A DNA stretch of 12,199 bases. It comes from a bacterium. GTDB taxonomy: Bacteria > Joyebacterota > Joyebacteria > Joyebacterales > Joyebacteraceae. Position 1 is the first letter of the stretch; the number at the start of each line of letters is the position of its first letter. The notes under the pieces are model-generated. The model had not been told where the DNA came from and ran no database searches. It saw nothing but the letters and a program-made list of their open reading frames with translations. The position numbers were made by a program, and so were the translations under genes. The DNA lies in assembly GCA_025774935.1 (NCBI GenBank), contig JALGZK010000031.1:1-12199 (forward strand). Reading direction: 5' to 3'. This document shows positions 1 through 12,199 of the stretch, piece after piece.

Positions 1-2695
1 ACCAGCGTCGAGCTCCTCGTCGAGGAGAACGCGGACCGAACGGCCTGCGACGTTGTAGACGGTGATCTGCGTGCGACCAGCCTCGCGGATGCTGTACGAG
101 ATCTTCGTGACCGGGTTGAACGGGTTCGGGAACGCCTGAGAAAGCACGTTCTTGTACCCGCCGTCGACCACGCCGGTCCCGTCGCCGCCGGGCGAGACTG
201 CGAAGTACGTCCCCATCGCGTCGTCCATGACCTGGACGCGATGTGCCATGCCCGTGTGGTAATACCCCTCGGGCGTGTAGTTCGACGCACCGCCGTCCCA
301 CGTCCCGTCCATGATGAACTCAACGCCGAACGGGTAGTTGACGGTCTTGTAGCCGAGCGTCTGGTGCGTGTACGCGACACCGGCCGGCCTGTGCGTGCCG
401 TCGGCCTTGATGTACTCGAGCGCGAGCTCCGCGCCGGGGATCCCGGCGAACGGCTGCACCACGTCGAAGTAATTCAACGTCGGGCAGGCCGCACGCGCGA
501 TGGCCTCGCCGCCGCCGATGAAGTCGCCGCCGCCAGGCGCCTCAACAATGCCCGGGACACTGTCGACCGTCACGGCGCCGACCGAGTTCTCGACGTAGTC
601 GGACGCGAGCCAGGTCTCGTAGAACGAGAGCGTCTCCTTCCCGACCTGCATCAGCTCCTTGCCGATGTCGTTGCCGGAGAGGATCAGGTTGCGATCGCCG
701 CCAACACCGGCCTCCTGCAACCACTGGATCAGGTTGTACTGATCCGGTGCCTTGATGGTGTAGGCGTCGAACTCGTTCACGAACCAGATCTGGGTGTGGT
801 AGTACTTCATGCCCGTGGTGTCGGGACCGTTCGACTGGTCGGTGCTGCCGGACGGAACCTCCACGTCGTACTTCTCATACTCGTAGCCCAGCGTCTGGAG
901 CGCTTCGCGGTAGTAGTACTCCGAGCTGTGGAGGTAGTCGCGCTGCTCGCTCGGGGTAAGACGCCCGTGCTTGTCGACCAGCAGGATGCCTCTGTCGACC
1001 GTCGTCGCCGTGATCGGCAGGATCGACATCTCGAACCACGAGTTGGGCGCGGCGCTCGGGTAGACCGCCACGTTGCCAACGTCATCCGTGCACTCGTAAT
1101 AGTACCGGATGATGGACCCCGGGACGATTTCGACAGACGGCGGAGGCGTAATCCACCACTCGCTCTGCGGATCCTCGCGGTGGCAGTTGTACGAGCTCCA
1201 TGTCATGCCCTCGTCGTTCGAGGCGAGAAGGAGCAGCGACGCGATGCCGTCGTCGTCCTTGACGCGGATCCTGGCGCTGTCCAGGAGCGCGTCTGCCATG
1301 TTGTCCTGGAACCAGTCGTTGAACGAGTTCCACGTGTCGCGCGTGAACGTCGTCCCCGCATCGCCGGAAGGTACGCCGACCCGCTGACGGTTGATCAGGA
1401 GACCCGCCATGTGCGGCTCGGTCGCCACGTCGTCGTTCTGGAGCTCCCAGCGGATCGAGAGCCAGTCGTTGCCGGCGAACGCGTCCCAGTCGTCGGTCCA
1501 GACGCCCCAGAAGGGACCTCCGTACCACCAGCCGGGCGCCTCGTCGACGAACCCGGCCGGGTCCGTCACGCACGCGAAGTCGTCGTTCGATGCCAGCGAG
1601 AGGTTGAAGATGTCGTTCGCGGGACGCGGGAGATCGACCCACTGGTCCCACTGGCCGATGAGCGTCGGAGCGGCGCTGAGGTCGATCGGCGGGCTCACGA
1701 ACCAGGAGTACTGCCCGTCGACCATCGTGCTCGTGAACGGATCGACCGCACATCCAGCTGCCGCAGTCACGGTCGTCGCACGTGAAGTCGCGACCGGTCA
1801 CGAAGTCGGTGCAGAACTGACCGCGCCAGAACACGATGCCGGTCTGACCTGAGGCCACGGTGCCATCGTGGACCCAGCCCATGTTGCCGGACTCCGCGTC
1901 GTCCATCCAGAAGTCGCCGCCCGGGCCGGCCCACGTGATGTTGTCGAGCTGCCAGGCGCCGTCCTGGACGGAGTTGTTCGGCGGCCCGTTGTTGTACTGG
2001 TCCTGCGACGAGTACGCGCCGTCCGACTCGAACCGGAACCTGAGGTCTACGGTCATTCCCGCATACGTCGACAGGTCGAGCGAGATGTGACCGTGCGCAG
2101 GGCTGTCCCAGTCCTGGGACATGCCCGGCTTCCCTGCGAAGCCCGGGTTGTTCGCGGTGTAGAGCGTCGTCCACGTACCACCGCCATCGTCGGAGATGTC
2201 GACGTAGCCGTAGTCGTAGTCGTGCTCCATCGCGAACCGCTGGTCCCAGTCCAGGGTCAGAGGATCCCCGCCGGTCGTGTTGGCCGCGACCTCCGGGAAG
2301 CTCCTCTCCAGAATCTGAAGCCAGTCATTCGCATAGCCACGCGGCTGGCGCCAGCAATCGTTGTTCGTGCCGCACCACCACGTGCTGTCGCCGAGATAGG
2401 CAAACCCGCCGATCCGGATGGTGTCGTGGTGCCAGTAGTTCTCCTGGCCCAGCGTTCCACTCCGGTCAAACGTCGTCCAGCCGGCGTTGTCGCCAGTCTC
2501 GTCCTCGAAATTCGCGTCGAAGATCCAGAGGGTCTCCAGCCTGGTCCCTCTGAGCTCTTCTGACGCAGGTGCCGCCTGCCAGGGCCTTTCAACCGCGCTC
2601 TGGAGGTCCATGTTCAGCTCCGTTGCAAAGGCGCCGCCCACGAACGCAACCAGGAAAAGGCTGACAGCCAGCACTGTCAGAGGCTGGTTCTTCAT
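1..2695 (-). CDS. Large exported multidomain protein with FlgD-like C-terminal sorting domain; frameshifted, 3' end off window
   Basis: The ATG at 2695 is chosen because it starts a clear signal peptide (MKNQPLTVLAVSLFLVAFVG, cleavage likely after AFA near residue 24). Residues 55-255 form an all-beta, Trp/Asp-rich segment (YVDISDDGG, WQLDNI) like the MAM/choice-of-anchor domains of secreted peptidases. A second such segment starts near 260. After residue 316 (Cys, codon 1750-1748) sense continues only in another frame, from GTC at 1746, open without a stop to base 1. That part holds an Ig-like stretch (RYYYECTDDVGN, about 1100), a segment with glutamine-amidotransferase-like pattern (ILLVDKHGR, then IWFVNEF, then LILSGNDIG, about 1020-660), and FPNPFNPVTKISYS plus VYNVAGR (about 135-40), the start of an FlgD-Ig/type IX-sorting-like domain. 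At least 898 residues are encoded if joined. I see no catalytic motif, so the function is unknown; it is probably surface-attached or secreted. It has its own strong promoter and is separate from the operon upstream. Confidence 0.85.
1740..1771 (-). other. Single-nucleotide frameshift site in the exported-protein gene
   Basis: Upstream of here the protein reads sensibly in the frame of the ATG at 2695 (CDDRDCGSWMC). Past 1748 that frame becomes Arg/Pro/His-rich nonsense. The frame one base further reads VDPFTSTMVDGQYSWFVSPP and stays good to the window edge. Removing one G of the GCGGTC stretch (1747 or 1746) gives a smooth join, WMC-VDPF. No slippery heptamer or strong pause structure is obvious, so an assembly error or a recent single-base insertion is more likely than programmed frameshifting. 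Confidence 0.75.
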
Positions 2696-2984
2696 TCGCT
2701 CAATCCCCCCCCATGAGGTGATCTGCTCATCCCTCTTCGCATCTATGCTTCGAACGCCCCGACCGCTCACTCCGCGAGTCTGTCCAACTCTCGGCGCGAT
2801 GGCCGAGGTGTCGTTTCGGGGTGTAGAAGGCACATCTCGCGCTATGACGCAATCCCAGGTGCTAAGAAACGACTCGAGCATGCTGTCTGCAGACGAATAA
2901 ACCCACCCGTCCGCAAGATGGAGCCATCTCGCACAAACGTGGGTGGGTCGAAAGCACGCAGCACTCTCGCTATTTCCCGACTCA
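2696..2984 (-). ncRNA. Long structured 5' leader of the exported-protein gene
   Basis: The predicted transcript start (about 2984) lies about 290 nt before the ATG. On the RNA strand a first hairpin pairs CGAGAG (2969-2964) with CTTTCG (2954-2949), including one G-U pair. A nested element follows: outer stem ACCCACCC (2948-2941) with GGGTGGGT (2908-2901), inner stem GCGAGATG (2932-2925) with CATCTTGC (2920-2913) around a GCTC loop, separated by an 8/4 nt asymmetric internal loop. Further on, GTCGTTTC (2873-2866) can pair with GAAACGAC (2817-2810). I do not recognise a known riboswitch class. No T-tract follows the nested stem, so it is not a plain terminator. It could be a regulatory or stabilising leader. 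Confidence 0.45.
2705..2712 (-). promoter_or_regulatory. G8 tract serving as ribosome binding site of the exported-protein gene
   Basis: A run of eight G on the RNA strand sits 9 nt before the ATG at 2695. It is the only purine-rich Shine-Dalgarno-like stretch there. Homopolymers of this length can slip, which would change the spacing between binding site and start. Confidence 0.45.
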
Positions 2985-3229: not shown

Positions 3230-5695
3230 CTACGGTGCAGACGCCTCGAGCTCCCGGACGAGGGAGTCGATGGCCTCGATCCGCTCCCCGCCCAGGTCGA
3301 GATGGCGCCGGTAGTGGTAGGCCGCCAGGTTCGGGTTGCCTGCGTGGAACTGGTAGGTGAGCGCGAGGTTCAGGTGTGCGGGCGCGAAGTCCCGGTCTAT
3401 GCGCAGCTCGGACTCGTATTCACGGATCGCGTCATCGTGGCGCCCCATCTCGCTGAGGATGACGCCCGTCATGAAATGGCCGTGGTCGAGCGTCGGCTCC
3501 ATCCGGAGCGCGCGGCCCATGAGGTCCAGCGCCTCGTCGAGAAGCGCCATGTCCCTCTTGAGCATCGCGAGCCGCCTGAGTGGTTCGCCGGAGGCGGGGG
3601 CCAGTCGGGCCGCGTCCTCATACTCCGCGACCGCCTCGACCGGCCGGCCCGCGAGCGTCAGAGAGTCGGCCCTCGCCATCGCCCTCGCGGCGGCCGGAGG
3701 CACCTCGGCGCGCCCCGGTCGCGCGATGAGACCGAGGTAGAACTCGATCTCCGGCCTCTCCCGCCCATCGGCGTCGTGTCGCGCTGCCTCCTCGAACGCC
3801 GCGACCGCTTCCTCCGGCCTCCCCGTTCTGTAGAAGACGATGCCTCTCTCCTTGAGTGCCATCGCGTTTTCGGGCTCGCCCGCGAGGAGCGTGTCGAGCT
3901 GCGCCATCGCCGCGTCGTAGTCGCCGACGCGCTCGTGAGCGATCGCGAGGTTGACCCGCGCGGCAGCGTAGCCGGGATCGAGCCGAACGGCGTTTCTGAA
4001 CATCTCGACCGCCTCCTCGCCCTCACCGCTGTCCGCGAGGAGCGCGCCGAGGTTCAGGTAGCTCTTGGGGTAGAACGGGTCGATCGAGATCGATCGTCTG
4101 TACTCCATGATCGCGCGCTCGGTGTCGCCGCGCTCCCCGTAGATGATGCCAAGTCTGTAGTGCGACTGCGCAAACCCCTTCCCCCGGTCCACCCCGTAGA
4201 AGTTCGTGTTGACGACGAACCCGAGGACCACGAGCGCCACCACGGGAACGACCAGGCTCCGCCACTCCCCTCCCCTGACGAGCCTGACGAACTCGAAGAC
4301 GGCGTACGACGCGCCGATGATGAGGACCGGGACCGCGGGCAAGCGATAGCGGGCGAGCACGAAGAACGCCACCACCGACAGCACGTAAATTGCGAAGAAG
4401 AGCGAGAGGAGGAACGAGCGACGTCGTCTCAACGTGAGCCCCAGGCCGAGGAGACCCAGCGGCGCGAGGAACGCGAAGCCCGGCAGGGGGAACGAGAGCA
4501 GGCGGGAGTAGCGACTCTGGAAGTAGTAGTTCTCGAGCTGCGGCAGCTCGTACGAGCTCGTCGCCCACGAGAGCTTCCGCACGAGGAGCTTCATCCATCG
4601 GCCCGGGTTCTCGGAGATGAACGCGCGCGCACGGCCGTACCAGTACGACGACACCTCGGACGGGGCCAGCTCGCGCCCGAGCGCTTCCTCAGCGAGCGTC
4701 TTCCCGTCCGGGTCGTTCACGATGTCGAGCCCCGGGGGAAGCGCGTAGCTCCCCGACGAGATCTCGCTGTTTCCGATGTAGAAGTTGAGCCCGCCGTTCG
4801 ACGTGACCAGCACGAAGTCCCGCGACACGACGAAGTTCCGGATCGTCACGGGCATGAGGACCACGAGAACCCCAAGAAGGAGGAGCCCCGCGGCCACCGC
4901 GGGCGACCAGCGACCCGAAGTCACGAGCCTGCGACCTCCCGGCCGGGCCGGTCGCCGCCCGCCCTCGTCGCGCCTCTTCCCCGCCGTCTCGCCGTCCCTA
5001 CGCGTCCTTCTGCCCGGTCCGAACCAGACCCACAAGAGCGCGGCCGGCACGAACACGAGCACCGCCGCGCGGCCGATCGCTGAGAGCCCGAGAGCCACTC
5101 CGCTGAGCGCGTAGAGCTGTGGCTTCCCCGTCGCGTCCGCGCGGACCAGCAGGAAGAGAGCGACGAGGTTGAGAAGCACGAGGAGGGGCGTGAGGATGAT
5201 CGATCCGTCGTAGAAGATCAGGGCGCCGTAGGCGGCCGCGACGAGCCCGGCCAGAATGCCGACCTTCCTGTCGAAGACCTCCTTGCCGAGGAGATACACG
5301 AGGACGGCGGAGAGCGATCCGAGACCCGCCTGGATCATCCGGATGAGGAGGAGGTCTCTGCCGAAGAGCCTGTAAATCGCCGCGAGGAAGTACGGATAGA
5401 GGGGCGTCATGAAGAACGCCTCTCGGGGTGCGGTTCCCCCCGCGATCTCCCTCGCCCAGCGGTCGTAGTACTTGGCGTCGAGGCCTAGAGTCTGGAAGAA
5501 GGGTGTGTAGCGAATCTCGAGGGTGTAGATCACGCGGAGGAGGAGCGCGCACGCGAAGATGACGGCCGGCCAGAACCAGGGCGAGTCCACGACCGAACGC
5601 GGCGACCACCCGGCCTCGACCGGCTTCGCGTCATGGTGCGTGTTCTTCTTCCGGGAACGTGCGCTCATCTCACCGCCGTGGAACGCGGGCTGCAC
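3230..5695 (-). CDS. GT-C-type membrane glycosyltransferase (PMT/ArnT-like) with C-terminal TPR repeats
   Basis: A protein of up to 821 residues. Residues 40-500 are polytopic: a first helix at about 40-60, then a loop with LDAKYYDRW, whose Asp73 matches the acidic residue after the first helix of GT-C enzymes that use polyprenyl-phosphate sugars. PLYPYFLAAIY (98-108) follows, then further helices, and RYRLPAVPVLI (449-459) in the last part of the membrane domain. A basic Arg/Gly-rich loop spans about 226-262. Residues 508-805 hold about eight TPR units (for example YRLGIIYGERGDTERAIMEY and YLNLGALLADSGEGEEAVEM). By analogy with TMTC proteins the TPRs should face the periplasm. The start is uncertain: GTG at 5695 lies 9 nt after the previous stop but lacks a binding site; ATG at 5668 (MSARSRKK) follows GGCGGTGAG and is my slight preference. 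Probably the last gene of the operon. Acceptor and sugar are unknown. Confidence 0.85.
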   Translation of the reverse strand: MQPAFHGGEMSARSRKKNTHHDAKPVEAGWSPRSVVDSPWFWPAVIFACALLLRVIYTLEIRYTPFFQTLGLDAKYYDRWAREIAGGTAPREAFFMTPLYPYFLAAIYRLFGRDLLLIRMIQAGLGSLSAVLVYLLGKEVFDRKVGILAGLVAAAYGALIFYDGSIILTPLLVLLNLVALFLLVRADATGKPQLYALSGVALGLSAIGRAAVLVFVPAALLWVWFGPGRRTRRDGETAGKRRDEGGRRPARPGGRRLVTSGRWSPAVAAGLLLLGVLVVLMPVTIRNFVVSRDFVLVTSNGGLNFYIGNSEISSGSYALPPGLDIVNDPDGKTLAEEALGRELAPSEVSSYWYGRARAFISENPGRWMKLLVRKLSWATSSYELPQLENYYFQSRYSRLLSFPLPGFAFLAPLGLLGLGLTLRRRRSFLLSLFFAIYVLSVVAFFVLARYRLPAVPVLIIGASYAVFEFVRLVRGGEWRSLVVPVVALVVLGFVVNTNFYGVDRGKGFAQSHYRLGIIYGERGDTERAIMEYRRSISIDPFYPKSYLNLGALLADSGEGEEAVEMFRNAVRLDPGYAAARVNLAIAHERVGDYDAAMAQLDTLLAGEPENAMALKERGIVFYRTGRPEEAVAAFEEAARHDADGRERPEIEFYLGLIARPGRAEVPPAAARAMARADSLTLAGRPVEAVAEYEDAARLAPASGEPLRRLAMLKRDMALLDEALDLMGRALRMEPTLDHGHFMTGVILSEMGRHDDAIREYESELRIDRDFAPAHLNLALTYQFHAGNPNLAAYHYRRHLDLGGERIEAIDSLVRELEASAP

Positions 5696-5704
5696 GACGC
5701 AGCA

Positions 5705-7051
5705 CTACTCGATGTAGCCGAGAGACCGGAGCTGCTCTCTGATCTCGTCGTCGATCGGTGACGGGATCGGCTCCTGACCCTCGGTCGCCTCACCGGACTC
5801 GTAGGTGTCTATCTCCACCACGGGACGGAGTTCGAGGAGCTCCGGCTCCATGATCTCCGTCAGGACCCTGCCGTCCATGTCGCGCCCGACGGGGAGACCG
5901 AGGAGCGCGAGAACGGTCGGTCCGATGTCGAGGACCGTCGCGTCGGCAACCTCAAGGCCTCCGGCGATGCCGGGACCCATGACGAAGACGACGCCCTCTT
6001 CCCTGTGCATGTCGAACCCCGTCGCCCCCTCGCCCTCGAAGTCAGCGCGCCCCACGTGACCGGCGAACCCGTGGTCCGAGCACACGATGACGGTCGTGCT
6101 CTCGTCGGCGAGATCGAGTAGCTCTCCGATGATGACATCCGTCTGCTCGTAGTATCGGTCGATCGCGGGAGCGAACGTGGCGACTGCCTCCGGGCTGAGC
6201 TCCCACGGCCACGCTTCGGGTTCCATGTGTCTCCAGAAGGTGTGGCACGTGAGGTCGACTCCCCGGAAGTAGACCGCCGTGAGGTCGGTCGGCACGGTTC
6301 GGGTCAGATGCTCCGCCAGCGCGAGCTTCGTCAGGTCGCTCGCGTAGATGCGCGTGAGTTCTGCGAGGAGCGACTGTACCTCCGGGTCGTCGAGGTGGTC
6401 TGTCGTGCCCAAGTAGCGAGCCACGTCCTCGACGGGCACGGAGTCCGCCGCAACCCTGAACCCGGCGACCTCCCCGAGGAGCTCCGGAGGGTGGACGGCC
6501 TGGGCCATGCGGTCCGCGTGCGTGTCCGTCTCGGTCTCCCTGCGGTCCCACTCGAGCAGGCGGAAGAAGCTCGAGGAGACCATGTAGCCGTCGACCTCCT
6601 CCACGGGCCACGTCACGAGCCACCCGATGAACCCGGCGGTCCTGTCGGCCGCGTTGAGGATCTGCCAGAGGGCCTTCGCACGCCTGAGGTTGGAGCTCAC
6701 CGGGGTGGCGACGGCAGTGTGGCCCCTGTCGACGAGGAACCCCTGCACGCCGTGCTTCTCCTCGGTCTTGCCGGTGGCGATGGTCGTCCAGATGCTCGGC
6801 GAGCGGTACGGGGCGATCGAACGGAGAACGCCGGACGCGCCCTCGCGCTGGAACCCGGCGAGGTTCGGGAGGCGCCCTTCCTCGACCAGCCGCTCGACCC
6901 GCCCCCAGTCCATGCCGTCGACGCCGATGAGAAGAACGCGCGGCTCGAGGGGAAGCGAACCGGCCCGGTCGCCCGCCGGCCAGGGCTGGACGACAACGAT
7001 CGCGACGGCGACCCCTATGAGAATGAGGGCAATGAGGATGTTCTTCTTCAC
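5705..7051 (-). CDS. Alkaline-phosphatase-superfamily phosphodiesterase, membrane-anchored (paralog E)
   Basis: 448 residues starting at GTG 7051, preceded by GGGAGGA (7061-7055). The frame is open far upstream, but only this start gives a sensible N-terminus: a membrane helix at residues 4-21 (NILIALILIGVAVAIVVV), making a periplasm-facing anchored enzyme. Catalytic pattern of type I phosphodiesterase/nucleotide pyrophosphatases: Asp45 (GVDG), predicted nucleophile Ser84 (RSPSIWTT, then ATGK), Asp266 and His270 (RGVDLTCHTFW), Asp326-His327 (SDHGF), His349. The family signature GWLVTWP (143-149) is present. The C-terminus is the shared tail SPIDDEIREQLRSLGYIE. It begins 50 nt after paralog D and ends just before the glycosyltransferase. 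It likely cleaves or transfers a phosphate or sulfate ester on an envelope substrate. The substrate is not readable. Confidence 0.88.
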   Translation of the reverse strand: MKKNILIALILIGVAVAIVVVQPWPAGDRAGSLPLEPRVLLIGVDGMDWGRVERLVEEGRLPNLAGFQREGASGVLRSIAPYRSPSIWTTIATGKTEEKHGVQGFLVDRGHTAVATPVSSNLRRAKALWQILNAADRTAGFIGWLVTWPVEEVDGYMVSSSFFRLLEWDRRETETDTHADRMAQAVHPPELLGEVAGFRVAADSVPVEDVARYLGTTDHLDDPEVQSLLAELTRIYASDLTKLALAEHLTRTVPTDLTAVYFRGVDLTCHTFWRHMEPEAWPWELSPEAVATFAPAIDRYYEQTDVIIGELLDLADESTTVIVCSDHGFAGHVGRADFEGEGATGFDMHREEGVVFVMGPGIAGGLEVADATVLDIGPTVLALLGLPVGRDMDGRVLTEIMEPELLELRPVVEIDTYESGEATEGQEPIPSPIDDEIREQLRSLGYIE

Positions 7052-7101: not shown

Positions 7102-8328
7102 TCAGTTCTCCAGAAGTTCCCCGCGGACCGCACCGTCGAGCCCCTCCGGCACGACGACTCCGGAGGCCGCCATGATCGTGGGAGCGGCATCGAAGAGCGA
7201 CACGTCCCCGCGCGCGCCCCCGACCACCCTCGGGCCCTTGAGCATCAGGAACCCGCGCTCGCTGTGCATCTCGTGCCCCATCAGAGGACGGCCGCTCGGA
7301 TCGACCTCCAGCCCCGCGTACCCGTGATCCGTGACGAGGGCGATCGTCCCGGTCTCCCCGGCGATCGCGATCGTCTCTCCGACGATCTCGTCGACGTGCT
7401 CGTAGTACCGTTCGATCACGACGCCGAGCGCCTCGACGAGCTCGTCGAGCCGTCGGGCGTAGTCGCCCTCCGCCCCGAGGGCCTCGATGACGGTGGAGTC
7501 CTTGTAGTGCCAGAACCGCTGGCTCACGGTGTTGAGGCCGGGGAGGAAGACGAGCACGTTCTCGATCCCCCGGTCGTGGGTCAGCCACCCGACCACGCGC
7601 GTCGCGGACAGGTCGCCCGCCAGCGCGACTCGCAGCGCGACGTAGTTCTCCCCGGCGAGGGCCTCGTAGCCGAGCTCAGAGTCGAGGTTGACGAATCGCC
7701 CGAGGTCGCGCCGCTTCACCGAGTGCTCCTCGACCATGAGGCGGTCGATGAGGGGCTGAACGGAGAGCGGGGAGAGAAGGGTGGCGGGGTCCTCGCCCCT
7801 CGTGCGGCCCAGGATGTAGGGCGTGTACGGTCCGATCATGATCCCGTTCAGCTCCTCGACGGGCCACGTGCCCGGCCAGCCGACGACCCCGACCGTTGCG
7901 CCGCTTCCCGACAGGATCGTCCACACGGTCTCTGCGGTCCTGCTTCTCGATGTGAGCGGCGCGTTGACCGTCTCACCACGGAGAGAGGTCTTCGTCCCGC
8001 CGATGCCCTGGTTCTCGGGCGTCATGCCCGTCACTAGGGACGTCCAGACGATCCTCTGATCGACCTCCTTGCCGAGGTTGTCGAACTCGGCGACCGCACC
8101 CTCCGTCATGAGCCGCGCGATGTTGGGAAGTCTCCCCTCCCCGACCAACCGCTCGACGATGGACATCTCGAGCCCCTCGACGCCGAGGACCACGAGAGAC
8201 ACCGGGCCGGGCTCGCGCGTCGCGGACGCCGGCTCCCCCTCCTGGGCGAGATACCGCGGCACGAGAATCGCCACGGTCGTGACGAACACGAGGACTATGA
8301 TGGCAAGGAGGATCTTGTCTGTCTTCAC
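7102..8328 (-). CDS. Degenerate alkaline-phosphatase-superfamily paralog D, probable pseudoenzyme, membrane-anchored
   Basis: 408 residues from GTG 8328 (GAGGGAGAG just upstream), with an N-terminal membrane helix at residues 6-24. The overall fold matches its neighbours: GEGRLPNIARLM, WTSLVTG, TWPVEELNG, FW after the DxxxH position, TDHGY, and a late His355. But four catalytic positions differ. The first metal ligand is Glu51 (GVEG, not GxDG). The nucleophile position is Gln91 (QRIVWTS, not SPVIWTS). The DxxxH pair is Asn266/Gln270 (NTVSQ). Asp334-His335 and His355 remain. It also lacks the LGYIE tail and ends in LLEN. The reading frame is intact with normal spacing and codon use, so it looks like a maintained protein, not a decaying gene. 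A structural or regulatory role beside its active paralogs is the likely reading. Confidence 0.85.
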   Translation of the reverse strand: MKTDKILLAIIVLVFVTTVAILVPRYLAQEGEPASATREPGPVSLVVLGVEGLEMSIVERLVGEGRLPNIARLMTEGAVAEFDNLGKEVDQRIVWTSLVTGMTPENQGIGGTKTSLRGETVNAPLTSRSRTAETVWTILSGSGATVGVVGWPGTWPVEELNGIMIGPYTPYILGRTRGEDPATLLSPLSVQPLIDRLMVEEHSVKRRDLGRFVNLDSELGYEALAGENYVALRVALAGDLSATRVVGWLTHDRGIENVLVFLPGLNTVSQRFWHYKDSTVIEALGAEGDYARRLDELVEALGVVIERYYEHVDEIVGETIAIAGETGTIALVTDHGYAGLEVDPSGRPLMGHEMHSERGFLMLKGPRVVGGARGDVSLFDAAPTIMAASGVVVPEGLDGAVRGELLEN

Positions 8329-8358: not shown

Positions 8359-9702
8359 CTACTCGATGTAGCCCAGCGACCGCAGCTGCTCGCGGACCTC
8401 GTCGTCGACGGGCGACTCGATGGGTTCCTCGTCGACCCCCTTCTCGAGATCCGTCTCGTGCGTCTCCACGAACCGCACCGGGTGCGTCCGGGCGAACTCC
8501 CTCGTGAACGCATCGGTCAGGACCTCGCCCTCCATGTCCCGACCGACGGGAAGGCCCGCGATGGTGAGGATCGTTGGGGCGATGTCGTGGACGCGGGCGC
8601 CTTCGATCGTCCGCCCCGGGACGACGCCGGGACCGTTCATGATGAGGACGCCGTCGGGGCTGTGCTGCTCGATCCCCATGCGGATCCGGTCGGCCCCCCA
8701 GGGGCCTGGTCCCTCGAACCCGTGATCGGAGACCACGATGACGGTCGTGTCGTCGGGGAACGCCTCGAGCACGCGCCCGACCATCTCGTCGGTGTACCGG
8801 CAGTACTCGTCGATCGTCCCGGAGAGGGCCTCGGCCTGCTTCTCCAGGGTGACCGAGAGCGCGTGCGCGGGATCGACCGGGGGACGGGCCTCGGGATCCC
8901 TGTAGACCCAGAACCCGTGGCAGGTCTCGTCCAGGCCCCTCATATAGACGCAGACGAGGTCGAGCCCTTCGTCTCCGATGAGCTCGAGCGCAACGCCGAC
9001 AGCCGCCTCGTCGCTTCTCACGGCCTCGATCAGGACGTCCCTGCTCCGCCCCTCGACAGCGTCGAGCCCGAGCTCGCTCTCGAGGTTCACGAACCTGGCG
9101 AGGTCATCGTCGCCAACGTCGACGAGCGACGCGACCAGCGGGGCGATGCGGGGACCGAGTTCGGCCGGGTACGTGACGCCCTTCTCCGCGTCGCTCCCGC
9201 CGAAGCTCGCCATGCGGTGCACGTACTGCGAGACCATGAACCCGTTGACCTCCCAGGGAGGCCACGTCACGAGCCACCCGACGACACCGACCCGGAGTCC
9301 GTTCGCGCCGAGGACGTCCCAGAACGCGCTCGCCGTCCACATGTTGCTCGAGTAGGGCTCGTTGTGGAAGTCGGCCGCCCCGCCTCCCTCGCGAACGAAT
9401 CCACGGACGCCGTGCGCTTCGGGCGGCTTGCCCGTGGCGATCGTCGTCCAGATGACCGGCGACCCCTGCAGCGGCTCGAGCGAGCGGAGCCTGCCGGACG
9501 CGCCTCCCTCGATCAGGCGCGCGAGGTTGGGAAGCTCACCCCCCTCGATCAGGGGTTCGATCACGCTCCACTCGGCGCCGTCGATGCCGAGCACGAGGAT
9601 CGGCCCCGCGCTTACGGGCGCCGTGGGCGCCGGCCGGCAGCCCGGCAGGGGGCAGAGCACGATGAGCGTGAGCACGGCGGTCAGTCGCACTGCGAGCCTC
9701 AT
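8359..9702 (-). CDS. Alkaline-phosphatase-superfamily phosphodiesterase, lipoprotein (paralog C)
   Basis: 447 residues from ATG 9702, with GGAAGGA upstream and only 15 nt after the stop of paralog B. The signal peptide ends in a lipobox-like LPGC (Cys22), followed by a Pro/Ala-rich linker, so it is probably a lipid-anchored envelope protein. Predicted active-site residues: Asp41 (GIDG), nucleophile Ser81 (GSPVIWTT), Asp258 and His262 (RGLDETCHGFW), Asp326-His327 (SDHGF), His347 (EQHSPDG). GWLVTWP lies at 142-148. Its end is SPVDDEVREQLRSLGYIE, the tail shared with B and E. Length is like B and E. It is a complete, likely active hydrolase or transferase; the ester cleaved is unknown. Confidence 0.9.
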   Translation of the reverse strand: MRLAVRLTAVLTLIVLCPLPGCRPAPTAPVSAGPILVLGIDGAEWSVIEPLIEGGELPNLARLIEGGASGRLRSLEPLQGSPVIWTTIATGKPPEAHGVRGFVREGGGAADFHNEPYSSNMWTASAFWDVLGANGLRVGVVGWLVTWPPWEVNGFMVSQYVHRMASFGGSDAEKGVTYPAELGPRIAPLVASLVDVGDDDLARFVNLESELGLDAVEGRSRDVLIEAVRSDEAAVGVALELIGDEGLDLVCVYMRGLDETCHGFWVYRDPEARPPVDPAHALSVTLEKQAEALSGTIDEYCRYTDEMVGRVLEAFPDDTTVIVVSDHGFEGPGPWGADRIRMGIEQHSPDGVLIMNGPGVVPGRTIEGARVHDIAPTILTIAGLPVGRDMEGEVLTDAFTREFARTHPVRFVETHETDLEKGVDEEPIESPVDDEVREQLRSLGYIE

Positions 9703-9717: not shown

Positions 9718-11064
9718 CTACTCGATGTACCCGAGAGATCTCAGCTGTTCGCGCACCTCGTCGTCGAGCGGGGACTCGATCGGCTCCTCGTCCGACTCGC
9801 CGGAGATGTCGCCGTCGCCGTCCTCGTACGTGTCGACCGTCGTCACCGGGTGCGCCCTCAGGAACGACGGGTCGATGGCCTCCGCGAGCACCCTTCCGTC
9901 CATGTCGTCCGCGACCGGCATTCCCATGAGCGCGAGAATGGTCGGCGTGATGTCGAGGACGCTGGCGTCGGCCAGCTCTCCCCCCGCAACGATGTCCTTG
10001 CCGGCGAACGCGATGAACCCGGTCGGATCGTGCATCCGGATTCCCAAGTGGTAGGCGTCGCCCACCCGTTCCGGACCCTCGAAGCCGTGGTCCGATGTGA
10101 CGATGACGGTCGTGTTCTCGTCGGCAAGCTCGAGGAAGTCCGCCAGGACTTCGTCCATGTACTCGTAGTACCTCGGTATGACCTCCCCGAAGAGCTCGAT
10201 CGACTCGGCCGTGGCTCCCTGGCCCGACTCGGGGAAGCTGTCGACCCAGAAGATGTGACAGGGCGAGTCGACGGCGCGCAGGTAGACCGTGAAGAAGTCG
10301 ACCGGCATCGCGCCCCCGAGGTGCAGGCCCGTCCGCCGGATCGTCTCGTCGGACGCGATGAACCCCTTTAGGGCGTCGAACTTCACGCGCTCCGGCCCCT
10401 CATGGGGAACCTCCTCGCCGGTGAACTCGGCCGCCCGCGAGTCGTCGACGTCGTCCTCCCTGACGACGAAGCGCGAGAGGTCTTCCGAGAGTCCCTCGGG
10501 GAACGTGATCGCGCTCGTCCTCCCGGACTCCGGCGGTTGCTCGAACACGAAGTAATTCGAGACGAGGTATCCGTTCACCGGCGTAGCGGGCCACGTCGCG
10601 AGCCACCCGATGACGCCAACGGAGGCCCCGTTCTCTCCGAGGATCTCCCAGACGGTCTTCACCCTCCGGACGTTCCTCGTCACCGGCGTCTGCTCGTGGC
10701 GATCGCCGTGCTTCACGAATCCAAGGACGCCGTGCTTCTCGGGTACCTTGCCCGTCCCGATGCTCGTCCAGATCACGGGGGACTCGAGCACGTCGAGCGA
10801 GTGCACTTCGCCCCAGGTTCCCTCCTCGAGCAGGCGAGCGAACGCGGGAAGACGCTCCTCGTCGATCAAGGGCTTCATGAGGTCCCACTCCAGGCCGTCG
10901 ATCCCGATGAGCATGATCCGGCGGTCGACCGGCTCGGGCTCTCCGCAGGAAGCGAGGACGAGCGGGAGGATCGAGACCAGTGCGATGAGCGCGAGTGCGC
11001 GAGCCCGCCTGGTCCCCGTGGGCCCTGTCGTCCTCGAGGTGTGCCGTGCCGCCGATCGTCTCAA
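9718..11064 (-). CDS. Alkaline-phosphatase-superfamily phosphodiesterase, lipoprotein, TTG start (paralog B)
   Basis: 448 residues if started at TTG 11064, which has GGGGGA a few bases upstream and lies 33 nt after the stop of paralog A. No ATG or GTG lies between it and the hydrophobic segment, so TTG is the best choice. A long basic N-region (Arg-rich, residues 2-22) precedes a hydrophobic core and lipobox LASC (Cys40). Predicted active site: Asp56 (GIDG), nucleophile Ser95 (ESPVIWTS), Asp266 and His270 (RAVDSPCHIFW), Asp325-His326 (SDHGF), His345 (RMHDPTG). GWLATWP lies at 153-159. An acidic stretch (residues 412-429) precedes the shared tail SPLDDEVREQLRSLGYIE. It is a probable active envelope phosphoesterase; the substrate is unknown. 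Confidence 0.87.
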   Translation of the reverse strand: MRRSAARHTSRTTGPTGTRRARALALIALVSILPLVLASCGEPEPVDRRIMLIGIDGLEWDLMKPLIDEERLPAFARLLEEGTWGEVHSLDVLESPVIWTSIGTGKVPEKHGVLGFVKHGDRHEQTPVTRNVRRVKTVWEILGENGASVGVIGWLATWPATPVNGYLVSNYFVFEQPPESGRTSAITFPEGLSEDLSRFVVREDDVDDSRAAEFTGEEVPHEGPERVKFDALKGFIASDETIRRTGLHLGGAMPVDFFTVYLRAVDSPCHIFWVDSFPESGQGATAESIELFGEVIPRYYEYMDEVLADFLELADENTTVIVTSDHGFEGPERVGDAYHLGIRMHDPTGFIAFAGKDIVAGGELADASVLDITPTILALMGMPVADDMDGRVLAEAIDPSFLRAHPVTTVDTYEDGDGDISGESDEEPIESPLDDEVREQLRSLGYIE

Positions 11065-11097: not shown

Positions 11098-12199
11098 CTA
11101 GTCCGTCGCCGTCAGCTCGTACGTCGCGATCCTCTCCCGGCTCCGTCCGGAGAGGAACCCCGGCTCGAACGCGTCTTCTATCACACTGCCATCCATGTCG
11201 TCGGCGACCGGCAGCCCGTACAGGGCCAGGATCGTCGGCGTGAGGTCGCACACCTGGGGCTCTTCGATCCTGACACCCTCCCGGATGCCTTCGCCGGCCA
11301 TGACGAGAATGCCCGTCGTGCCGTGCTCGTTGATCCCTCCCGACTTCTGCCCGGCCTGGGGGCCGTCAAAGCCGTGGTCGGAGCAGACGATGACGCTCGC
11401 GCCTTCGCCGTACGCGTCGATGAGCTCGCCGAGCATCTCGTCGGCGTACTCGTAGTAGCTGTTGACCGTCTCCCCGAAGACGCGCTGGTAGGTCTGCGAG
11501 ACCCTCAGCGGCGAGTCGTCCGGGTTCGCGGACGACCAGAACTTGTGGGACGCGGAGTCGACACCCCGGAGGTACACGACGAAGACGTCGGTCGGATGCG
11601 TCTCCATCATGTACTTCGATGCCGCGAGGAAGGTCATGTCGCTGGCGACGAAGAGCCTGAGCTGCGAGAGCATCTGGTCTACCGTCTCGATCTCCCGCAT
11701 CTCGACGAAGAGCTCCTCAATGGGGAGCTCCTTCGCTTCGTCCTTCGTGAGCGCCCTCTCGGGGGAGGCGAACCGTGCGAACTCCTCGGCGGCGATCGAC
11801 TCCGCGGCGACGCGGAGACCCTCGACCTCGGCGAGGAGCCCATCGGGGTAGGTCAGGTTCTCCGTCTTCGGCCTGTCCGCCTTCGGCGGGATGCGGAAGT
11901 AGTCGGTGATCATGTAGCCGTTCACCGGCTCCGCCGGCCAGCTGACGAGCCAGCCGACGACGGTGCAGTCCGTCCCTTCATCTCCGATGATGTCCCAGAA
12001 CGTTCTCGCCGTGCGCATGTTGCTCGTCATGAGCTTGTCGGAGCCCGGGGTCACGTAGTCCGTGACGCTGTGCTTCGTGGGTTCCTTCCCCGTCGCGATG
12101 CTCGTCCAGATGACCGGTGACTTCTGAGGAGGATCGAGCGACTTGAGCCCGCACGATACGCCGCGCGCCACGAGCCGCCCGAGATTCGGGAGCCTCCCC
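11098..12199 (-). CDS. Alkaline-phosphatase-superfamily phosphodiesterase (paralog A), N-terminus beyond window
   Basis: The frame is open through the right edge and reads GRLPNLGRLVARGVSC at the start, which aligns about 20 residues after the first metal-binding Asp of the paralogs. The GTG at 12171 is therefore internal, not a start. Visible catalytic residues: nucleophile Ser in KSPVIWTS, the DxxxH pair in RGVDSASHKFW, Asp-His in SDHGF, and the late His in NEHGTTG. GWLVSWP is present. The first Asp, anchor and promoter lie off window. Unlike B, C and E it lacks the LGYIE tail and ends ATYELTATD. It is the first visible gene of the probable operon, with B starting 33 nt after its stop. Confidence 0.88.
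   Translation of the reverse strand, partial: GRLPNLGRLVARGVSCGLKSLDPPQKSPVIWTSIATGKEPTKHSVTDYVTPGSDKLMTSNMRTARTFWDIIGDEGTDCTVVGWLVSWPAEPVNGYMITDYFRIPPKADRPKTENLTYPDGLLAEVEGLRVAAESIAAEEFARFASPERALTKDEAKELPIEELFVEMREIETVDQMLSQLRLFVASDMTFLAASKYMMETHPTDVFVVYLRGVDSASHKFWSSANPDDSPLRVSQTYQRVFGETVNSYYEYADEMLGELIDAYGEGASVIVCSDHGFDGPQAGQKSGGINEHGTTGILVMAGEGIREGVRIEEPQVCDLTPTILALYGLPVADDMDGSVIEDAFEPGFLSGRSRERIATYELTATD

Follow-up and report, generated by a model that had tools for sequence, protein, structure and literature searches.

We find that gene D, which lies in an array of NPP (type I phosphodiesterase) paralogs, probably encodes an ancient pseudoenzyme that has been kept by selection and that most likely works in the inner membrane, without catalysis of its own, as a partner to the active paralogs that are lipoproteins. 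The protein appears to have become an NPP pseudoenzyme before the sampled members of Ca. Effluviviacota diversified. Its fold is preserved but the nucleophile and part of each metal site have disappeared from all orthologs, and D evolves under purifying selection at a fixed place in the array.

The window, meaning the whole stretch of DNA analysed, corresponds to one complete contig (12,199 bases) in a metagenome-assembled genome of 3.24 Mb. Its source family is placed in Ca. Effluviviacota, and its closest named relatives are Ca. Eisenbacteria and Ca. Effluviviaceae records. This phylum (“Eisenbacteria”) was described from marine (deep-sea) seeps and Guaymas Basin sediments, and the paper describing it makes no mention of phosphodiesterases or phosphatases (PMC11323493). 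On the minus strand, in order of transcription, the PF01663 proteins A, B, C, D and E are followed by a PMT_2 glycosyltransferase with TPR repeats and then by a MAM/FlgD-like surface protein. The gaps between successive genes from A to the glycosyltransferase are 33, 15, 30, 50 and 9 bases, an arrangement as in a single operon. A scan for promoters and terminators returned nothing exceeding chance. The main features are as follows.

11098..12198, minus strand: A, paralog truncated by the contig end; visible catalytic residues intact; without the LGYI tail
9718..11064, minus strand: B, active-type paralog; lipoprotein signal; LRSLGYIE tail; present in 20/20 genomes
8359..9702, minus strand: C, active-type paralog; lipoprotein-like signal; LRSLGYIE tail; missing from the array in 10/20 genomes
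7102..8328, minus strand: D, putative pseudo-phosphodiesterase of 408 aa; membrane helix 2-27; NPP/alkaline phosphatase-superfamily domain ~42-408
5705..7051, minus strand: E, active-type paralog; mostly membrane helix; LRSLGYIE tail; missing in 3 genomes
3230..5695, minus strand: membrane glycosyltransferase of PMT_2 type, carrying TPR repeats at its C-terminus; follows E and closes the tightly spaced series

In relatives an extra paralog, Z, lies upstream of A, and glyQ-glyS lies upstream of Z. The order glyQ-glyS and then array is seen in several genomes (L040, L042, L043, L044, L048, L049), with an MgtE transporter slightly upstream; in G002 a CNNM/CorC-type protein is also encoded slightly upstream. 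The MAM/FlgD-like gene of the window (1-2710) is split into two frames near 1745-1790. It forms one frame of ~940 codons in relatives, and the split here is either an assembly error or a real frameshift.

A syntenic D ortholog is present in all 20 available genomes of the phylum, representing eight genera, although half of these genomes come from two genera, so that the count amounts to fewer than 20 independent observations. The position of D is constant, between B or C on one side and E or the glycosyltransferase on the other. One ortholog (G012) is divided between two contig ends. The 19 full-length D proteins group in a single clade (SH-aLRT 100), as do the copies of A, of B, of C, of E and of Z (99-100), in a maximum-likelihood tree that was a quick search with far outgroups on long branches and an uninformative root. 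Sequence identity between D and Z, A, B, C or E is ~30%. When a D profile was run over 80 genomes of another phylum, the best 30 relatives read all carried the canonical D, S, H, DxxxH, DH and H residues, apart from the first column in one partial sequence, and none of these 30 was a D-type protein. Over 84,980 species genomes, a D-profile scan that depended on two peptide patterns specific to D recovered D loci of Ca. Effluviviacota and nothing else.

The D open reading frame is intact (minus strand, GTG start at 8328, 408 codons) and is immediately preceded by a ribosome-binding-like GGGAG site. Its product matches Pfam PF01663 with 51.7 bits against a cut-off of 23, and Pfam-based annotation would label it an active phosphodiesterase. 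The structure prediction called for in the original prediction bore out an NPP fold: the AlphaFold2 model of D has a pLDDT of 92.7 (89.6 for the model of B) and a pTM of 0.86, and comprises an N-terminal helix (2-27) and a full domain. The first Foldseek match of this model is Xac NPP, and alignment with VIA-align gave a Z of 23.7 (rmsd 3.1, 257 residues) for Xac NPP 2gsn. Both the profile match and the alkaline phosphatase-superfamily fold place D by descent in the type I phosphodiesterase/NPP family. The best structural Z, 25.3 (rmsd 3.9, 316 residues), was obtained with the PafA-type alkaline phosphatase (PDB 5tj3), which shares 15% sequence identity with D and, unlike D, is an active phosphatase with a Thr nucleophile. 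With Xac NPP (PDB 2gsn, 7n1s; PF01663), D shares the fold (Z 23.7-23.8), the order of motifs, an alignable first metal site and the DHG motif. It differs in that the nucleophile is gone, as are the first Asp and the DxxxH His throughout the orthologs, and in its additional N-terminal membrane anchor.

The array paralogs Z, A, B, C and E resemble D in operon, fold and domain order, but their catalytic residues are invariant, and Z, A, B and C carry lipoprotein-like signals. A strict pattern finds lipobox-like N-termini in A (13/16), B (17/18), C (9/11) and Z (9/15), and several of the remaining A, B, C and Z N-termini show a GC ending by eye. No lipobox occurs in D in any of the 20 genomes, and D, in contrast to the lipoprotein paralogs, is therefore predicted to stay anchored in the inner membrane through an N-terminal helix that is not cleaved, with its domain presumably on the periplasmic side. 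The LRSLGYIE tail ends nearly all copies of B, C, E and Z, whereas D and A are without it. Across the arrays (L039-L058) no copy of A or D has a C-terminal LRSLGYI(E/N/D) tail; this tail also ends relatives in another phylum (L105-L134), where most of the 30 carry LRSLGYI.

In NPPs, positions 51, 91, 266 and 270 of D correspond to metal ligands and the nucleophile. The original prediction held that D has Glu51, Gln91, Asn266 and Gln270 where intact paralogs have Asp, Ser, Asp and His. All four residues are indeed present in the window protein, and the canonical set is seen in B, C and E; A shows S, D and H, its first Asp lying beyond the contig end and being visible only in A orthologs. Alignment of the D profile to Xac NPP (2gsn/7n1s) matches residue 91 to the catalytic Thr and residue 51 to the first metal Asp. 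Columns were then counted for D in 20 genomes against 77 other array members, with one degenerate Z set aside.

8176..8178, minus strand: codon 51 (counted down from 8328), Glu; first metal ligand, Asp in active paralogs; E 13, Q 6, K 1 in D orthologs (the raw count of E is 14, the 14th being the second G012 fragment) versus D 76/76, one of the 77 paralog rows having no letter at this first column
8056..8058, minus strand: codon 91, Gln; Ser nucleophile in active paralogs; P 9, A 5, Q 2 and G, L, V, M in D orthologs versus S 77/77
8008..8010, minus strand: codon 107, Gln; Q 19, H 1 in the 20 D orthologs versus H 77/77 in active paralogs
7531..7533, minus strand: codon 266, Asn here; D 15, N 3, E 2 in the 20 D orthologs versus D 77/77
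7519..7521, minus strand: codon 270, Gln; Q 20/20 in D orthologs versus H 77/77 in active paralogs

This pattern is not due to chance, as the paralogs are canonical in 77/77 cases, bar the one missing first-column letter. By these counts four events are fixed: the first Asp and the nucleophile disappeared, and His gave way to Gln at 107 and at 270 (H107Q, H270Q). Q91 and N266 occur only locally, N266 being a late change found in three genomes. The counts also rule out that the E/Q/N/Q set is fixed across orthologs, since only Q270 of the four is (20/20). The proposal that this set is itself a selected feature, reached through changes conservative in size, is not supported either, because position 91 varies among P, A, Q, G, L, V and M and position 51 can also be Q or K. 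Orthologs with the normal D/S/DxxxH residues, which would have spoken against a pseudoenzyme, are absent as a full set from every genome, although Asp266 taken alone is normal in most. The original prediction had further missed the H107 to Q change, the loss of P92, the retention of D334, H335 and H355, and the fact that Q91 and N266 are not common to the orthologs. Of the 43 columns with at least 97% conservation among the other paralogs, D has kept the majority of those with Gly, Pro or Trp and lost the majority of the catalytic ones. It has neither the Thr/Ser nucleophile of an active NPP nor the complete two-metal site (Asp, DxxxH, Asp-His, His).

Some active neighbours are not always found in the array: 10 genomes lack C, three (G010, G013, G017) lack E, and G007 lacks A. 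By comparison, B and D are present in 20/20 genomes, and Z in 18/18 of those whose contigs permit the test. The dN/dS check suggested earlier gave median YN00 omega values for D, from within-genus pairs, of 0.16 (g3) and 0.21 (g4), and 0.08 for a single g1 pair. Most medians for active paralogs are 0.06-0.14; for E, single pairs gave 0.05 and 0.175. Purifying selection thus acts on D, though in somewhat relaxed form, and because its omega is about twice that of the active paralogs, part of the signal reflects relaxed constraint. The most relaxed stretch is 256-345, where the DxxxH and DHG motifs lie (identity between genera of 43% in D versus 53-63% in active paralogs). Residues 111-160 (57% versus 52-70%) and the cap, 161-255 (39% versus 34-49%), are equally conserved in D and in active paralogs. 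In addition, D has 21 conserved columns whose residues are rare elsewhere, including Q107, T137, R175, D195, R206, N228, Y229, Q270 and S356, which points to new constraint in the sequence rather than mere loss. D combines an enzyme fold that has lost catalytic residues with retention under purifying selection, two of the properties by which a pseudoenzyme is recognised. The central claim that selection has kept a non-catalytic fold is supported by 20/20 syntenic orthologs that lack the nucleophile, have open frames and show omega well below 1.

The covalent intermediate of the NPP family requires a nucleophile and two metals, from which we infer that D is non-catalytic. Judged by its residues, it would be unable to form the phospho-enzyme intermediate and so would act without catalysis. 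D would then most likely be a membrane-anchored partner, either a scaffold or an allosteric or substrate-presenting subunit of the active lipoprotein phosphodiesterases encoded beside it in the operon. Should D serve an active paralog, B and Z are by elimination the best candidates, since no other active paralog is retained in every genome where its presence can be judged. Gln107 and Gln270, both conserved, might then make up a pocket that is poor in metal and held by hydrogen bonds, replacing the arrangement of histidines that binds metal. Counting against this reading, D334, H335 and H355 are kept in 18, 20 and 19 of 20 orthologs and D266 in 15, and some metal binding may survive in D. Operon neighbourhood and co-retention are also no proof of a complex. 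The neighbouring PMT_2-type glycosyltransferase suggests, as a guess, that the active paralogs act on a lipid-linked or surface glycan. We offer more tentatively, as a proposal that could well be wrong, that D is the phylum-wide, obligate pseudo-subunit of a phosphodiesterase machine in the envelope: a metal-free NPP-fold protein, anchored in the inner membrane, that organises or gates lipoprotein NPPs which themselves work with the PMT-type glycosyltransferase on a surface glycan or lipid carrier. If true, D would represent a conserved family of alkaline phosphatase-superfamily pseudoenzymes.

In working terms this proposed arrangement is like that of KIAA0157, a pseudo-deubiquitinase that pairs with BRCC36 and regulates this active relative (PMC5106787). 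In both cases a dead copy without metal-site residues is found beside active relatives, but D has candidate partners, the folds differ, and the setting of D is the bacterial envelope. Pseudoenzymes are best studied in signalling families. In a limited search, the pseudoenzyme reviews PMC10211241 and PMC5106787 made no mention of alkaline phosphatases or sulfatases, and a limited literature search found nothing relevant on NPP, alkaline phosphatase or sulfatase pseudoenzymes. Present in all 20 available genomes beside active copies and with a natural series of orthologs, D offers a clean case in which to ask how a dead copy becomes indispensable.

D might instead be a stand-alone ligand-binding or sensing protein whose old pocket holds a phosphodiester or glycan uncut and which delivers or senses this ligand independently of the paralogs. 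The pocket-lining GWxxTWP motif (150-156) and the cap are as conserved as in active paralogs, and D-specific charged residues cluster in or near the cap (R175, D195, R206, N228, Y229), both of which speak for such a function. However, D is never found outside the array, which favours a role tied to its neighbours, and we consider independent binding rather unlikely.

It is improbable that D is an enzyme with a different chemistry, using a water nucleophile on one remaining metal or a Ser/Thr that has migrated. The near-invariant D334, H335 and H355, the mostly kept D266 and a Glu or Gln at position 51 that could still bind metal would be compatible with such activity. Against it, position 91 drifts freely, and the part of the protein that bears the metal ligands is the most relaxed. 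No metal-binding set is common to all orthologs, since in D of G009 positions 51, 266 and 355 are Lys, Glu and Tyr. There is also no other conserved Ser/Thr nearby that is D's own: inspection of the alignment by eye for a replacement nucleophile found T96 and S97 conserved in D, yet S/T occupies these positions in active paralogs too, so neither is a replacement.

It is very improbable that the D gene is decaying and will be lost. The roughly doubled omega and the longer end branches of D in the tree speak for decay, but it is contradicted by orthologs that are open in all 20 genomes, with no stop codon, by retention of D where active neighbours are deleted, by omega well below 1 and by D's own set of newly conserved residues. 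An artefact of sequencing or assembly in one genome, which might be feared in a metagenome contig that carries another frameshift-split gene, is refuted by the orthologs, as the losses at 51, 91 and 270 recur in all 20 genomes, from several studies.

A few other array members depart from the common pattern. Z of G003 (L041:11164-12465, G003:C10) is a second, independent degenerate copy, with an open frame and a very long branch, in which other residues stand in place of the Ser, the Asp of DxxxH and the DH pair. A B fragment of G017 (L055:2-409, G017:C236) reads SDNGH for SDHGH, so that one metal His is changed in an otherwise ordinary B; this may be a sequencing error at the contig end. G007 has a second C-like copy (L045:7985-9277) and G009 a second E copy (L047:7874-9235), both of which are lineage-specific duplicates with canonical residues.
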